From Bombyx mori (Eukaryota > Arthropoda > Insecta > Lepidoptera > Bombycidae): 64,000 nt of DNA. Where the stretch lies: positions 7,378,001 to 7,442,000 of the forward strand of contig NC_085107.1 of NCBI RefSeq assembly GCF_030269925.1, given 5' to 3'. The notes beneath the pieces are model-generated. The model worked only from the letters and a program-made list of their open reading frames with translations. It made no database searches and was not told the DNA's origin. The position numbers and the translations under genes were made by a program. Below, in pieces: positions 6,961-57,125 of this stretch (positions are counted from its first letter, which is position 1; each line of letters starts with the position of its first letter).

Positions 6961-7618
6961 ATGTTTTTTTATTTATTAAAATTCCTCTATAGAGGAATTA
7001 CCGGGATTAGATGAAGATTCATAGGATAATGTGTCGTATATACGTATAAATGTAAATAAAGCTAAATTGAAATCCTTGCTAACAGTCACCGAAAAATATC
7101 TAAGAATCGAATTAATATTCCATGATAGCATTTTTAAATGAACGAAAATAAAAATTCAGTGTAAATGAAGTATCATAATAATTCAATGCTGAAATGAAAC
7201 AAAATATATTTAAATATAATTCACGAGTGTTTCTGGTATCCACATAAAATCATTGGCCGCGACTATAGTTGCTTAGCTTTCATCCACACGCGAATAAAAT
7301 CTGGATTTTAATTCTAGGGTCAGCAGACTAAAGCACATAAGTCAAAAAACTCGACTTTACAGGAATTAAAAAAAACTATTTAGAACCTTATACATTAACA
7401 AACTTAATAATGTTTATTTGAATTATATAAGTCTATAACACTAACTTATTATTAAAATTAAATATTTTAAAGTAAATGTGATTATTTAATAATTAGATGA
7501 CTTAAGTTATAAGGAACACAATAATAGTATGAGTTAAGTGAAAAAGATCAACAATTAAGATATATATTATAATAATATAAGTCATAAATATAAATATAAA
7601 TATCAATTCAATGTTTAA

Positions 7619-8803
7619 TTAAAATTCTTCTTCTTCATCGAGTTCTAAAATATCTGGATCAGTATTTCGTAAAGTTTCCAACGTGGGAAGACTTATGTAA
7701 AATTCATGGAAAATATCTAGTATTAAAGGGAGCAGCGGAATTAAATCATTTTTTTTCTCGATGGATATGGGTAATGGCTGTATAGATATTATATCATCAG
7801 TTTGAGAACCTCCTATGGATGATCTCCTTTTCATAGCAACTGTCTTTATAAAATTGACACTTTCATCTAACGGTTTCATTAAACGTCCTCGGCAGACAGG
7901 TTCACGTTTACCCTGCACAGTAAAAAAGTATTTTTATGTCTTCATTCTAAGCTTTTGCTTTTCAGGTTCAATAGCTCGTATTCTTTGCTTAGATTTATCT
8001 TGAATTTCCATTAAAGACGCCAAGTATGCAGATCTTTTTACATATGACCCCATTTGCCAATATTCTGTAAATATGGCATGCCTATCAGCTAATGGTTTAC
8101 GTTCTTTACATTTCATTCTGCAAACAGGTAACTCTTTCAAATTCAAAATCATTTATTTGAACTTAGATGTCAGTATAACACACTTGTTGAATGTCAAAAT
8201 ATAAATAACAATGTAAACTCTACCACCGGCTCCAAAAAAAGCCACAGTCTTGAGAAGAACCGGCGAAACAAACTCAGCAGCCTTTTTTTTTTGTTTTTTC
8301 TCAAATTTTTTTTTCATAGTGCGATCTGATATACATTTTCCTTTTAAAGTTTTGTATGCCTGTCCTAAGTTACGTTTTATTTTTTCTCTTTTTATAGTAC
8401 GCAATACTCTTTTTTGGAGACACATTAGGATTCATTGAAATTTCATCACAAGTACTTGAACTTGATGTGATTGGAAGTCTCGGTAATTCATAACATGGAT
8501 CTCGTACAAAATCATCACTAGAGAAGTCAAATACAGAATAGTATGTTAAACTACTGACTTGACCTGATGATGTTGACGGTATAGGATCGTCTACTACTAG
8601 GTTCTCTGTGTTCAAAATCGACTGTTGACTTACATTTTCTAAAAAAGGACAAGACAATTATCTATTTATAATGATATAATATTGATATAATTACGTAATT
8701 TGCAAATCATAATTTAGAAGGTATGTGAAAATATACCTTCATTGCTTTCCAGATGAGTGGATAACGTCATTTCAACTAATTTCTTGCCTCTTTGAATATT
8801 CAT
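7619..8803 (-). pseudogene. Decayed gene inside the TIR element; arthropod family with Cys-rich N-terminal region
   Basis: A small exon 1 (8803-8737, starting MNIQRGKK) has a GAAG|GTATAT donor and joins exon 2 at 8638 (TTTTTTAG acceptor). Exon 2 is Ser/Asp-rich, then a basic block KREKIKRNLGQAYKTLKGKC. It resumes as VCRMKCKERKPLADRH, then IFTEYWQMGSYVKRSAYLAS, then YFFTVQGKREPVCRGRL, and ends in an acidic tail DEEEEF at 7619. The pattern C-x3-C, then YW-x-x-x-x-Y-x(2)-R-x-x-(Y/F), then G-x-R-x-x-V-C matches, from memory, the N-terminal part of arthropod proteins that usually end in a DUF7869-type domain; that C-terminal domain is absent here. Disabling changes: a frame change near the A6 run at about 8413, an insertion at about 8145-8280, and an in-frame TAA at about 7932. 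Its function is unknown. Confidence 0.6.
8145..8280 (-). mobile_element. LINE 3'-end fragment inserted in the TIR-element gene
   Basis: On the minus strand this stretch runs from TGCTGAGTTTGTTTC through GGAGCCGGTGGTAGAG to a tail AAATAAATGATTTTGAATTTG. That order and tail resemble a very common 3' end of insect non-LTR elements, from memory. It splits the host reading frame between the basic block and the VCRMKC block. A possible target duplication, AATTTGA, lies on both sides. Moderate confidence, based only on remembered consensus. Confidence 0.5.
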
Positions 8804-9211
8804 CTTAAATAATTAAAATACTTAAGCTACTACTGTGCACAATCGACAACATTAGTAAATTAAAACCACTTACCGAAGTATTGTTTACGTTATAAATATT
8901 TTTAAGTAACCACTTTCTCTAAAGAAATGTTACATTTTGATGTTCTTTATAACATAAGTCAAACTTCTTACGTTAATAACTTTGTACTTATGGTGTTCCT
9001 TAGAACATAAGTCCAGTTATGTTTTTTAGTTCGTTTGATTATATTAGGATTTGATAAGGTTGATACAGAACGCCGCTTGAATACGCCATGAAATACTTGA
9101 CTTTGATTTATGTGCTTTAGTCAGATTGTGTGTTGAGCAAAATGTAAACCGATGATGTAATAAAAAATAAATTGAAATTTTTGACTTATGTGCTTTAGTC
9201 TGCCGACCCTA

Positions 9212-9788
9212 GAATTTATGTTATGAATAAATTTACATTCGTGTTTATTTGTTTGAAGTAAGTTTGTCTAATTGATTTTTTTTGCGTGAGGTTTTATGGA
9301 AGCAGTTTATTGTTTCACCACACAGTCGTCTGTCTGTCTGTGTTTGTTTTAAAACATTTCGAGCTCTCAGTTGGATTATGATTAATTAATTGGATTCACT
9401 AGCATTACCGGTGACTTCTTTCGTGTTTTTCGGAACTTTAGTGTTATACAGTGCAGTGTAATAGCTCAGTTTAGTTAATGTTACAATAATACTTAACAGA
9501 TAAACTTTAATATATGTAGGTACAAGCGTAACTATGTACAAAGGCAATAAAATACATAATAATATATTTTTTGGCATAAAATAATGTTAAAGTAACCAAT
9601 AGATAAGCATATAGAAGTATTATCATTTGGATTTATAACATTATTATATTGTTTAAATAGTACGTGATTTCACCATATTTGTGAAATATTAAACTGGCGT
9701 GGTCATGAGTGCTCATCACTGACTCTATTAGCAATGTTATAATTGCGTCGATATTGTTATTGGATGCGATTTTCGTATTAGGAATATT
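9212..9788. other. Gene-free stretch right of the TIR element
   Basis: AT-rich, with a (GTCT)3-4 run at 9326-9342. Nothing else recognised. Confidence 0.5.
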
Positions 9789-32719: not shown

Positions 32720-33260
32720 TAGGTGCTAATATTAGGTAATACTTTAGTATGAAATTGCCGATTTGTACTGAAAATTTTAAATTCGTTTTTTTTCATTTAA
32801 TCTGTTTATTCTATCAAAATATCTACCATTTTTATCTATACATTGCTGCCATCTAATAGGAAGGTCATATTTTATGCCTTTGCGATAGAACTCTGGTGAT
32901 CTAAATTCTACAAGCTGTGTGAAAGCATTTTGTACTGCCTCCTGGGAAGAAAACTTTTTATCACGCAGAAAATTGTCCAAATCACGAATAAAATGGTAGT
33001 CCGTTGGAGCAAAGTCTGGCGAATACGGAGAGTGACGAATAGTTTCTAATTGCAGTTCCTGTAGAGTTAAAACGGTTTCTCTTGCTGTATGAAGTCTCAC
33101 GTTATTATGGAGATATAATGGTGAAGATCGATTCATGAGTCGGGGCTGTTTCACTGCAAGTATTGCTATCATTGTTCGGAGTTCGGCACAGTAGACATCT
33201 GCCGTTATGGCTTGACCAGATCAGAGAAAGCTACAGTAAATAGCACCATGCTGAGACCAC
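32720..33260 (-). pseudogene. Mariner transposase relic (C-terminal half)
   Basis: The minus strand encodes SGQAITADVYCAELRTM after a stop codon, then SSPLYLHNNVRLHTARETV, HSPYSPDFAPTDYHFIRDL and RWQQCIDKNGRYFDRI. This is the order of a mariner (DDxD) transposase C-terminal half. The second catalytic Asp (normally H-D-N) is Asn here (H-N-N), so it would be inactive even without the stop. The N-terminal half is absent. Sequence at 32727-32760 (TTAGGTAATACTTTAGTATG) may be the 3' terminal repeat. Confidence 0.8.
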
Positions 33261-46000: not shown

Positions 46001-49000
46001 AATTAAGACACTTCAATTCTGAAGATGCGATATGAAGGGCAAGAGTAAAAATTAGTCATTAAAAGATAAAAGTTTCTCCGCTTACCGATCCTTCTAATGC
46101 GTAGCTTGGGGGATTGTTGCTACCTAATTGGTAAGCAACTGTGGTAAGCAGACCTCTTGTCGAGTTTACTCGAATATCGCCTGTATTATAAAGGACAAAG
46201 CAACCAGTTCCGTACGTGGCTTTTGCTTGTCCTTTCTGGAGGCACATCTGTCCGACTAACGCGGCTTGTTGGTCTCCGAGGCAACCGGCAATCGGTACAC
46301 CTTTGAGAGGACCATCAGCAATGTATCCGTAAACCTGTAAAATAAAGATTAAAAACATACAAAATAAAATAACTAATTTACCCAGCAAGCACAAAGCAGC
46401 TTGCTTTGGGAAATTAACTAAACCAATAATTTCTAATAAAAGAAGTGCCTTATTAAATGAAATTGAAACCAAAACTTTTGATTCAAAGTAGCATTTTTAT
46501 TATAAATTGATTTTAAAGTGGCAACTTTATACAATGTGTATGGTGTGTAATTTTGGAAACGCTCAGGATAAATTTAAATTTATTTTATCAACATATCAGC
46601 CACCCATCGGCCTTTTGGATAAGATCAAAGTTCTTTTCAGCCTAATAGCCACCCATGTAATATTTTTAAATCCAATTGCTATTATATTACATAATTTGGC
46701 TCTTATATTTAAAAATAAATTAATCCAGAAACAAGTGACAAAAATAAAACAACACATCTAACAATATCTAAATTGAGACTTTAAAAACAAATGAGGTTCA
46801 TTTGTTAGCTAATAATGCAGGCCATAAATTAGAACCAATATAATTTTAAAGTTGTTTTGTATACGATTGAAAAAGAAAAAATAATGGTAAAAATGTGTTT
46901 GGCAGTGTCTTAAAGAAATTCAAGATATTCTTTGAATGTTTTTTTAAAATAAGTTACATTTACCTCAGGTTTTTTTGCCAACATTGCATATGAAAGTCTT
47001 ACCTCTCAATTTACATTTGTTAGGAGGTAGATAATAATATTATATTCAGAGAATCTATAGTAAACACAACACATATAACGTTACCTCTGAACTGGATTTA
47101 ATGTCTGGTAAGACGGACTTAGGCACTTCGAAAAACCTTAATAGCAGTGGATCCCAATTCAAATTCTCAATATTCATTAACATTGTTCTCGATGCATTGG
47201 TGACATCAGTGACATGCTTCCCGCCATTTGGACCACCTGAAAATATTTATTGTATAAATCTTACAATATGCACTGCAAAAAAGCAACTGAAGTAATATAT
47301 GTTATTAATAGGAATAATTTCTTAACACACACAAATATTACTGTTTTGGTATTAAATTAAATTAATAGATTAGCCTCAGCATATAGCAATTACAAATCAT
47401 AAGAGTGTGTAGTCAGTGTTGGTTTACATACATTTGTGCCTATGGGTGGATGAATGGATCCAACAGTGTGTGAAATATTTTAATTGTTGCTAATATTATA
47501 TTTTCATACCTGTCAAGTTCCATATGATCCAACAATCAACAGTACCAAAACGACAGGTACCCTTCTTCATGGCATTCTTTACAGGATCAACATTGTCACT
47601 AAGCCATCTCAGCTTAACAGCACTAAAGTAAGGTGAGAGTGGAAGACCACATAATGGCTGCAAAAGTTTTTTTATATTTCATACTAGAGGTCCCGCAGTA
47701 GTCGAAATTCGACTATAATTAATTGGAATTGTAAGTTTGTACACTATTATGATTGTATTTTCAACGCCCAGACTACACTATAGAAAAATATTAATCAAGA
47801 CAAACAATATTTAATCTATTCTCAATTTGACCACAGACGTCAACAACAAAACTTTGACAATAAATAAATATGATGCATGTGCGTGTGTGTCAAATACATG
47901 GTAGTGTGTGTAATGTTTTCTTTATTGGTTTAATGTATCTGTTATACATTATTTTAAAAAAATATTAGCATTATGCACTTCTTCTCTATATTCTCTATAA
48001 GTCTGGAAAATCTCCTCAATCCGCGCAATTTTCGTAAAAAGGGATACAAAGTTTTTGCTTCACGTATTAATATATAGATTTCATATACTAGTAATTACAT
48101 CTATTTCATAAACATTGAATTTTCATTATTAAGATGATAACCATGATAGTAGTAGGTCTGATAGCATGCATCTGCAATCTGATAAATCGGTGAAATAATA
48201 AAAATATTTGACACTTGATCAATCAAATAATAGTGTTTATCTATAGCACTGAGATATGTGAGATTCGAAATAAAGTTTTACAAATTTGTTTTTAAATTTT
48301 AAATTGTTGTTAAATATACCACCTGATTGTCTATATCTACTACTTGCTACTCAAAGATGTTGACAATACTAGAGAAGCAGCCAAAAAATAATAATTAATA
48401 GATTTCATTCGATTCCGATCCGAAATCGAATCCGGATCTGATTAATATTAGCAACGCGTCAGGTTTGAGCCCCGTGAGCTCACCTACTTGTTTGGGTTAT
48501 GCTGAAATGATCTCTCAAGACGAAAAAAAAAAGAAACTTCGATAATGAAATGAATCATTTCTAAGAGACTTTAAAAGACTAAAACATAAATTCTTCTTCT
48601 TCTTCTTTTAGATAATTTGGCTCCAACGCCTTTGGCATTGATTTTGCCAATGTCAAAGTATTTACAAAAATGACAGGTGCTTAGAGAGGGAAAAAATTAC
48701 TAAGTCTAAATACAAATAAATTTGGTCGGTTTTTCCATACGTGAATCTGTGGTTTTAAGAACAGCACAAACAAATATATGTTAGACTAACTACTTTAGAG
48801 ATAAATATTATTAGCAGATAAAAATGTACACAGAATATTTACATGTTTAGAATAGACTAAAGTTAATAAACAATTAATATTAATAGGCCGGGGAATGTCA
48901 TTGGGAAGGATATCATAAAGAGGGGATACGATATTGGGGCAGTCGAAGAAAATGTGATCCAGGGTATCCTCATCTAATCCACACTCACAAAGAGAATGGT

Positions 49001-55619: not shown

Positions 55620-57125
55620 TGAATAGACGATGGAACTTGAATTGATTCGCCCCTACCCCGCGACTTGTCCTCCGACCGCGTCCGACAATTTCGCTGTAGC
55701 GATCGACTTTTTTCAATTCATCAACTTGGAGCCGCCGCCTCCACTGCACAAAACTTCATCGCCGTTGTGCAAAAATACGCCGACGTATACGCGTCATTAA
55801 ATACGTACGTCCTCCCCTCACTCCGCCGGTTATCAATGGCATACAACAGTAGAATGAGAGTCCTATCCGTAACGATAAGATTTTTTAACTGTGACGTGAT
55901 CGTCGACAAATGAACGTGATCAGGTTTGTGATTTTTTGCGTGACCATCGAATTGACATCTTTTTAGTGCAGAAGACTGTACTTAAACCCGCGGGTCGCGA
56001 CCCTAAAATCGCGAACTATAACATAGTTACGAACAAAAGCGTCACTGCTCGTAGTGGTGGTATCGTCATCCCGCTCGATCCCCCCGCGCTCGCCAACATC
56101 GAGGCATCAGTACATTTGCCGAATCGCACTGCGGGACACGCACAGATCATTATCGCGTGTTTATCTTCTACCTGATAAGATCATTTTAACCAGCAATATC
56201 GATGCGCTGCTCGGCATCGGAAGCTCTGTCATTCTGGCGGACGAGATGCCAGATGGTTTAATTTCTTAGAAGGACTCGCATTCTCCATACGGTCTTACTA
56301 CCGCTTAGCTCGTACTCTCAAATCGGGTACAATAGTAACTATGCCCCTCACGCGTAGGCCACTCAGGCCGACTCGCGCCGTTTGATGATGACGAAAAAGA
56401 GCTGCTGGCCGATACATTGCAAGCCCAGTGCACGCCCAGCACTCAATCCGCGGATCCTGTTTATTTAGAATTAATAGACAGAGAGGTTGAACGCAGAGCC
56501 TCCTTACCACCCCCGGACGCGTTATCACCCGTCATACCGATGGAAGTTAAAGATTTGATCAAATATCTACGTCCTCGCAAAGCTCCAGGTTCCGACCGTA
56601 TATCTAACAGTGTTATTAAACTTCTACCTGCCCAGCTCATCGTGACGCTAGCATCTATTTTCAATGCCGCTATGATGAATTGTATCTTTCCCGCGGTGTG
56701 GAAAGAAGCGGACGTTATCTGCATATATAAACCGGGTAAATCAAAAAATCATTGATAAACAATTCGTATTCGGCGCAAATCCGTGCCGCGTTTATTCTTG
56801 GCAGACCCTACCCCATGATCTGAAAGCGGAGTAAAATGTCGGAACAAGGTGACGCTTTACAAAGCTTGCATAATGCCCGTCATGACTTACGCGAGTGTGG
56901 TGTTCGCTCACGCGGCCCGCACACACATACCTATACACACCCTCAAATCCCTACAATCCCGCTTTTGCAGGTTATCTGTCGGAACTCCATGCTTCGTTAG
57001 GAACGTTTCCCTACACGATGACCTGGACCTCGAATCAATCCGGAAACACATGAAGTCAGCGTCAGAAATTGAAATAATCACTAAAAATAAAATTAGAAGA
57101 CAAAATGACATTTATTTGAATTAAT
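55620..57125 (+). pseudogene. Non-LTR retrotransposon (jockey-like LINE), decayed
   Basis: Pieces in several frames follow LINE order. First is an ORF1-like end, then an APE endonuclease-like stretch (DHRIDIFLVQKTVLKP at about 55940, SSVILADEMPD at 56225). Next is the reverse transcriptase N-terminal part (PRKAPGSDRISNSVIKLLP at about 56570, CIFPAVWKEADVI). After a jump at about 56757 comes the C-terminal region (CIMPVMTYASVVFAHAARTH at 56868). The catalytic RT core lies in the missing part. Stops and frame changes show it is dead. Confidence 0.8.

Follow-up and report, generated by a model that had tools for sequence, protein, structure and literature searches.

Introduction

Several described groups of DNA transposons have to be considered as relatives of an inserted element found at about positions 7310 to 9216 of a 64,000-nucleotide stretch of the Bombyx mori genome (contig NC_085107.1 of assembly GCF_030269925.1, positions 7,378,001 to 7,442,000; hereafter the window), which carries the remnant of a gene of the DUF7869 protein family between two terminal inverted repeats (TIRs). 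In the excerpts of the reports drawn on here, elements of the Sola superfamily encode DDD transposases, generate 4-bp target site duplications, have TIRs in the range of 11–1124 bp and occur also in bacteria (PMC10741241). Sola2-type elements are described with AT-rich 4-bp AWWT duplications and TIRs of 12–21 bp, and they include derivatives which have lost most of the transposase region (PMC3627910). In one aphid mobilome Sola was rare, with 508 elements making up 0.02% of the genome (PMC9783078), and for Kolobok a TTAA duplication and 5'-RR termini are given (PMC9587614).

Here, the element of the window is interpreted, with a probability of roughly 85%, as a non-autonomous, degenerate derivative of an autonomous cut-and-paste transposon which would encode a single DUF7869 protein. 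As in cut-and-paste transposons of the DDE/D type, TIRs are present in the unit, and the predicted RNase-H core with its acidic residues is found in the relatives of the encoded protein, whereas it is deleted in the window copy.

Results

The one recognisable gene in the unit lies on the minus strand and consists of collinear pieces of one DUF7869-family protein (Table 1). It shares its N-terminal motifs and its C-terminal end with the DUF7869 proteins P0003, P0005 and P0006; compared with these, however, the window copy shows a frame change, a stop codon and an insertion and lacks approximately 379 central residues (209–587 of P0003) between ...GGSQTDD and IISIQPLPIS..., the deletion joining the N and C parts in one reading-frame joint. 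The N-terminal piece matched 227 of 241 relatives and the C-terminal piece 112 of them (best 40/54 identical, P0008), and in the 12 rows inspected the C-terminal match ended at most three residues from the C terminus of the relative. With the joined pieces as query (X at the joints), seven proteins were retrieved at E values up to 1 among 2539 candidates: P0001–P0005 aligned at 51–64% identity over 49–83% of the query (P0005 64% over 49%), P0006 (334 residues) was 86% identical over 14% of it, and P0007 showed 24% identity at an E value of 0.038. The gene is internally deleted rather than a half gene acquired elsewhere. The earlier note, made from the sequence alone, had likened it to the N-terminal half of an arthropod protein family; the family match on the minus strand holds, but the description was incomplete, the C terminus of the family being present too.

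Starts resembling the predicted exon 1 (MKRGRYLVNM, MSRGRKILDM, MMNRGKLMVE) occur in 3 of 122 relatives, as found with a motif written after exon 1 had been seen. A Pfam scan of four reading frames of the window gave one sub-threshold match only (E 0.18) and a scan of the joined conceptual protein none; the Pfam domain DUF7869 is not matched by the window copy because it lies in the deleted part. The insertion at 8138–8311, for which no second copy was found in the window, resembles what we take to be the tail of a lepidopteran long or short interspersed element. Due to the frame change, the stop codon and this insertion, the copy encodes nothing functional now.

The family itself is large. 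With P0003 as query 388 proteins scored below 1e-3 among 6329 candidates, and with P0007 290 proteins among 7981 candidates scored. Among the matches listed, 120 for each of these queries plus those of the joined-piece search, the named sources included butterflies, moths, beetles, flies, an aphid, a leafhopper, a stick insect, a cockroach and a spider; most rows were nameless, the names given were uncharacterized, hypothetical, unnamed and DUF7869 as well as one fused SUEL lectin, and none carried the label 'transposase'. Full-length relatives are mostly about 600–800 residues long and have a cysteine-bearing N-terminal part and a conserved tail. P0011 of Euphydryas editha and P0003 share 79% identity over 79% of the latter.

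An alignment of 51 of the 122 relatives (A2) was used to assess conservation. All 51 members matched Pfam DUF7869 (PF25273). Of 34 matched families 25 were listed, down to those with a single member matched, and apart from DUF7869 the families listed were matched by at most five members each, none convincingly. D432, D474, H477 and E481 are present in 51/51 members, D355 in 50/51 (one gap) and E472 in 49/51; D355 and D432 are separated by 76 residues, and from there the spacing is 41 residues to D474 and 48 to E481. The cysteines C99, C103 and C175 are found in 50/51 members and C178 in 49/51, and the motif GH[ST]..E.D..H..[IVL]E in 225 of 241 relatives. A sequence search of the PDB returned only two chance-level matches (E 0.4 and 0.51), and NCBIfam, applied to seven relatives, likewise two, both for P0001.

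The AlphaFold model of a relative displays a predicted DDE/D RNase-H transposase/integrase core within the region deleted from the window copy, and structure comparison showed that this core resembles those of Mos1 and Metnase. VIA rows fell mostly on residues 219–508, and the N-terminal part was hardly covered by the fold comparison. The single match below 1e-3 in a BFVD fold search, with TM values of 0.13/0.19, was to a protein of Barrevirus which carries the label 'IS4 family transposase'; it was not used.

Five DUF7869 proteins of E. editha (P0123, P0133, P0149, P0151 and P0153), derived from contigs which differ in length from one another and hence number five, are near-identical, with 353/356 identical residues for P0123/P0149, 351/356 for P0133/P0149, 315/318 for P0149/P0153, 314/319 for P0151/P0153, 329/335 for P0149/P0151, 474/488 for P0123/P0133, 327/340 for P0123/P0153 and 324/338 for P0133/P0153. 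The lowest values, 364/436 for P0123/P0151 and 354/428 for P0133/P0151, are probably due to fused or rearranged gene models. This degree of identity suggests recent mobility, as judged from the protein sequences. The five proteins belong to the branch of P0007, which is about 30% identical to that of the window element (P0011 compared with P0123). Moreover, P0150 of the spider Argiope bruennichi is identical to P0123 of E. editha at 278 of 312 residues, a likeness that suggests either horizontal transfer or contamination. According to precomputed Pfam accessions, the gene model of P0149 is fused to domains that we take to be of protease/disintegrin type and that of P0153 to a domain presumably of cuticle type, and P0151 is fused to a stretch which by eye reads like reverse transcriptase. 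The gene model of P0140 joins DUF7869 to a domain which we take to be a lectin domain. Such fusions, some of them to host genes, may reflect prediction error or real exon capture.

With regard to the ends of the unit, a 1893-bp insertion (7317–9209) with 32-bp TIRs differing at one base and a TA duplication had been proposed in the earlier note. The inverted match was confirmed by blastn (31/32 bases, 7317–7348 against 9178–9209), and the stretch with a single mismatch turned out to be even longer, namely 39 nt (7310–7348/9178–9216); with the repeat finder, longer arms of 48 nt and 90% identity were obtained (7310–7357/9169–9216). The 39-nt stretch begins at AATTCTAGGG, with AATTCTA on the left facing TAGAATT on the right. 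Hence an inserted unit with TIRs is upheld but not its exact borders, since the two arms go on matching for seven bases beyond GGGTC. A 19-nt TIR pattern, allowing up to three mismatches, had two matches in the window, both of them the ends of the unit, compared with 0.02 expected from shuffling.

Framings were enumerated over a range that begins 6 bases inside the previously proposed border and extends 15 bases beyond it, and perfect duplications were obtained for TA (7317–9209), CTAG (7318–9208), AATT (7314–9212), AT (7313–9213) and TTA (7311–9215). The proposed TA flanks thus fit as one framing, but AATT is preferred and CTAG, AT and TTA fit as well. The TA framing is not the best supported one, because the palindromic flank AATTC/GAATT, which is present at 11 of the 5827 TA dinucleotides of the window, would then be coincidence, and CTAG is less favoured because the AATT on either side would stay unexplained. 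The whole symmetry is accounted for by AATT with a TIR of CTAGGGTCRGC... and equally by TTA with a TIR of ATTCTAGGG. Duplication of AATT with a unit of 7314–9212, seen in one copy, needs the least coincidence, and we give it about an even chance; TA and TTA are each clearly less probable, and CTAG is the least probable of the four. These weights are a matter of judgement and are based on a single copy.

Towards both ends the unit contains short repeats. In the window ACATAAGTC occurs five times in exact form, always inside the element; with one mismatch allowed, 27 copies were counted in the window against 17.6 expected (27 being reached in 1 of 100 shuffles), and 9 of these 27 are located in the unit. 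For CATAAGTC the count is five occurrences in the element compared with 0.047 expected, which was reached in none of 1000 shuffles; the subterminal motif was picked after inspection of the element. Subterminal repeats of this kind are typical of transposase binding sites.

No stretch with the TIR pattern was found in viral contigs, and comparison of viral contigs with P0003, A2, P0091 and P0007 gave 0, 10, 2 and 14 pattern matches, respectively, without a confirmed relative. In prokaryote genome contigs, two peptide patterns derived from A2 gave 47 pattern matches, none of which was confirmed.

Table 1. Features of the element, with positions in the window. Target site duplications are given in the preferred framing.
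Feature	Position	Strand	Basis or remark
Left copy of the preferred target site duplication, AATT	7310..7313	.	Framing enumeration; rivals CTAG, TA, AT, TTA
Left TIR, CTAGGGTCAGCAGACTAAAGCACATAAGTCAAAAA	7314..7348	+	Repeat finding, pattern search, blastn (earlier note: 7317–7348)
Subterminal repeat ACATAAGTC in left TIR	7335..7343	+	Further exact copies at 7690–7698 (-), 8952–8960 (+), 9005–9013 (+), 9183–9191 (-)
C-terminal 57 residues as in the family (IISIQPLPIS...DPDILELDEEEEF), with stop codon	7619..7792	-	Alignment with relatives
Internal deletion junction	7792..7793	-	P0003 residues ~209–587 absent, catalytic core included
N-terminal domain, continued to ...RRSSIGGSQTDD	7793..7933	-	Second Cys of the family CxxC is Arg here
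Conserved N-terminal domain (CRMKC...EYWQMGSYVKRSAYLASLMEI)	7934..8137	-	Stop at 7934–7936; Tyr there in P0001–P0005
Repeat-like insertion, ~170 bp, between conserved ...DRTMK and KEL...CRMKC	approx. 8138..8311	-	Alignment A1, reading frames
Continuation in another frame (RVLRTIKREKIKRNLGQAYKTLKGKCISDRTMK)	8312..8410	-	Frame change near 8410
N-terminal acidic/serine-rich region, first frame	8410..8638	-	Open reading frames, alignment
Predicted exon 1 (MNIQRGKKLVEMTL...)	8737..8803	-	Inspection; followed by predicted GT-AG intron 8639–8736
Internal copy of TIR stretch GACTAAAGCACATAAGTCAAA, 20/21	9102..9122	-	Repeat finding
Right TIR, one mismatch (A/G) to left TIR	9178..9212	-	Repeat finding, pattern search, blastn
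Right copy of the preferred target site duplication, AATT	9213..9216	.	Framing enumeration
			

Discussion

In view of the predicted fold, the conserved residues and the genomic behaviour, the DUF7869 family is very probably the transposase and not a captured host gene. Of the two alternatives raised in the earlier note, that the family includes a transposase or that a host gene was captured and mobilised, the former is therefore supported by the predicted DDE/D RNase-H core, the invariant acidic residues and the mobile-DNA behaviour in other genomes. Following this, we propose that the autonomous parent is a cut-and-paste transposon whose DUF7869 protein would bind both the TIRs and the subterminal copies of ACATAAGTC via its cysteine-bearing N-terminal region, and would cut and join DNA via its central DDE/D RNase-H core, as its predicted fold suggests. 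The full-length protein would cut at the ends of the element and insert it with a short duplication. An internal deletion took out the core and left the ends intact; joining the N and C termini of the gene in this way is common among non-autonomous derivatives of autonomous transposons. The shortened element may then have been moved in trans by supplied transposase, its insertion leaving what is preferably read as the 4-bp duplication AATT. Frame change, stop codon and repeat insertion would be the damage that inactivated the copy.

The parent probably belongs to the superfamily Sola, nearest to Sola2, an assignment by likeness to the excerpted published descriptions; its transposase would then already be in repeat libraries. 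A Sola type was judged likeliest because of the abundance of DUF7869 in arthropods. The AATT of the window element, the preferred framing of one copy, fits the AWWT of Sola2; the residues D355, D432 and D474 of the relatives would make a DDD triad, yet E481 is equally invariant; and, like the described Sola2-type derivatives, the window element has lost the core transposase region. In contrast, its TIR of about 35 bp exceeds the 12–21 bp given for Sola2. The suggestion of the earlier note that the transposon may be undescribed is so far not supported, given that an AT-rich 4-bp duplication and what may be a DDD triad agree with Sola, by description and not by sequence.

Several observations weigh against these interpretations. 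The link between the TIRs and an intact DUF7869 gene would follow from the deletion anatomy of one copy. The core assignment derives from a predicted model, with the third acid being either D474 or E481 and without residue-by-residue catalytic superposition, and Foldseek alone was weak, its best E value being 1.2e-3 and none falling below 1e-3, with NurA, RNase H, MutS and Argonaute next. Regarding the duplication, a direct match of at least 4 bp at some framing in the searched range was obtained for 410 of 3000 random 1893-bp intervals, and 400 of 60000 control cases had a 4-bp duplication immediately flanking an inverted repeat that continued up to it. As for Sola, the invariant E481 does not favour it, nor does its occurrence in bacteria, as the excerpted account has it, in combination with a prokaryote scan without a relative, nor its rarity in the aphid compared with the wide arthropod distribution of DUF7869.

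The last of these points would also suit an explanation in which DUF7869 represents an unrecognised DDE/D superfamily, missing from present transposon classifications, widespread in arthropods and concealed among gene models named 'uncharacterized'. Its elements would in this lineage end in CTAGGG and target AATT, with the window element as a non-autonomous derivative. In line with this, the matches listed were never labelled transposase, no other Pfam family among those listed was supported, and an incomplete survey of the open-access literature found no paper naming DUF7869, PF25273, IPR057191 or PTHR34415, the last two being identifiers which we take to denote the family and which may be wrong. 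We nevertheless regard a new superfamily as rather unlikely: the family is so abundant (388 and 290 proteins below 1e-3) that repeat curators are unlikely to have overlooked it, and the AATT duplication and the possible DDD triad fit Sola, as partially excerpted (PMC10741241; PMC3627910). Resemblance to the C/DxxH superfamilies (hAT, P, MuDR, Kolobok, Dada) is seen in a DxxH (D474, H477) which is present in 51/51 relatives between the second D and E481; however, it lies only three residues before E481 and is for this reason at most a candidate for the C/DxxH motif. Of the 34 Pfam families matched by the 51 relatives 25 were listed, and none of these belongs to the five superfamilies. The framing expected for Kolobok pairs TTAA with TTTA (3/4) in the one copy and would start the element with TTCTAGGG, which differs from the 5'-RR termini of the excerpted description. 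A likeness of the termini to those of piggyBac (CCCTAGAA) was also considered and dropped, the orientation being reversed and the sequence giving no support.

DNA transposons as a group are known to capture genes, and the window copy holds parts of a gene only, so the element might have captured and mobilised a piece of an ordinary DUF7869 host gene. This is improbable, as both ends of the protein are retained and only the middle is gone at one in-frame joint, the relatives possess a predicted DDE/D core and near-identical copies within one genome, and the identity of 278/312 between spider and butterfly, for which contamination is the alternative, is unlike that of an ordinary gene. About as improbable is an element of the Tc1/mariner type that duplicates TA, despite the TA flanking GGGTC on either side and the resemblance of the modelled core to Mos1 and Metnase: no mariner family was recorded in the full Pfam table of P0003 or among the 25/34 families listed for the 51 relatives, the acid spacings of 76 and 41 or 48 exceed the DD34–39 pattern of the Tc1/mariner group, and TA would leave the AATTC/GAATT flank to chance (11/5827). 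That the unit is a chance inverted repeat or an assembly artefact around a decayed gene would be consistent with the examination of a single copy, but appears extremely improbable considering that 39 nt match with one mismatch, that by chance 0.02 occurrences of the 19-nt pattern would be expected in the window and that the exact subterminal repeats are restricted to the unit.

A useful outcome of the preferred interpretation as a derivative of a DUF7869-encoding transposon is a likely function for DUF7869, so far uncharacterized. If these proteins are transposases, hundreds of arthropod entries named 'uncharacterized' or 'DUF7869 domain-containing' would be repeats to mask and not genes to count, and placing DUF7869 inside or outside Sola would fix its position in transposon classification.

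Elsewhere in the window, three frames without a Pfam match at 1e-3 were observed. The 147-residue frame at 32777–33220 (-) reads like what we take to be the end of a mariner-type transposase, the 138-residue frame at 56339–56755 (+) is presumably a fragment of a reverse transcriptase of the type lacking long terminal repeats, and the 145-residue frame at 46059–46496 (-) reads like what we assume to be a glycerol kinase exon.
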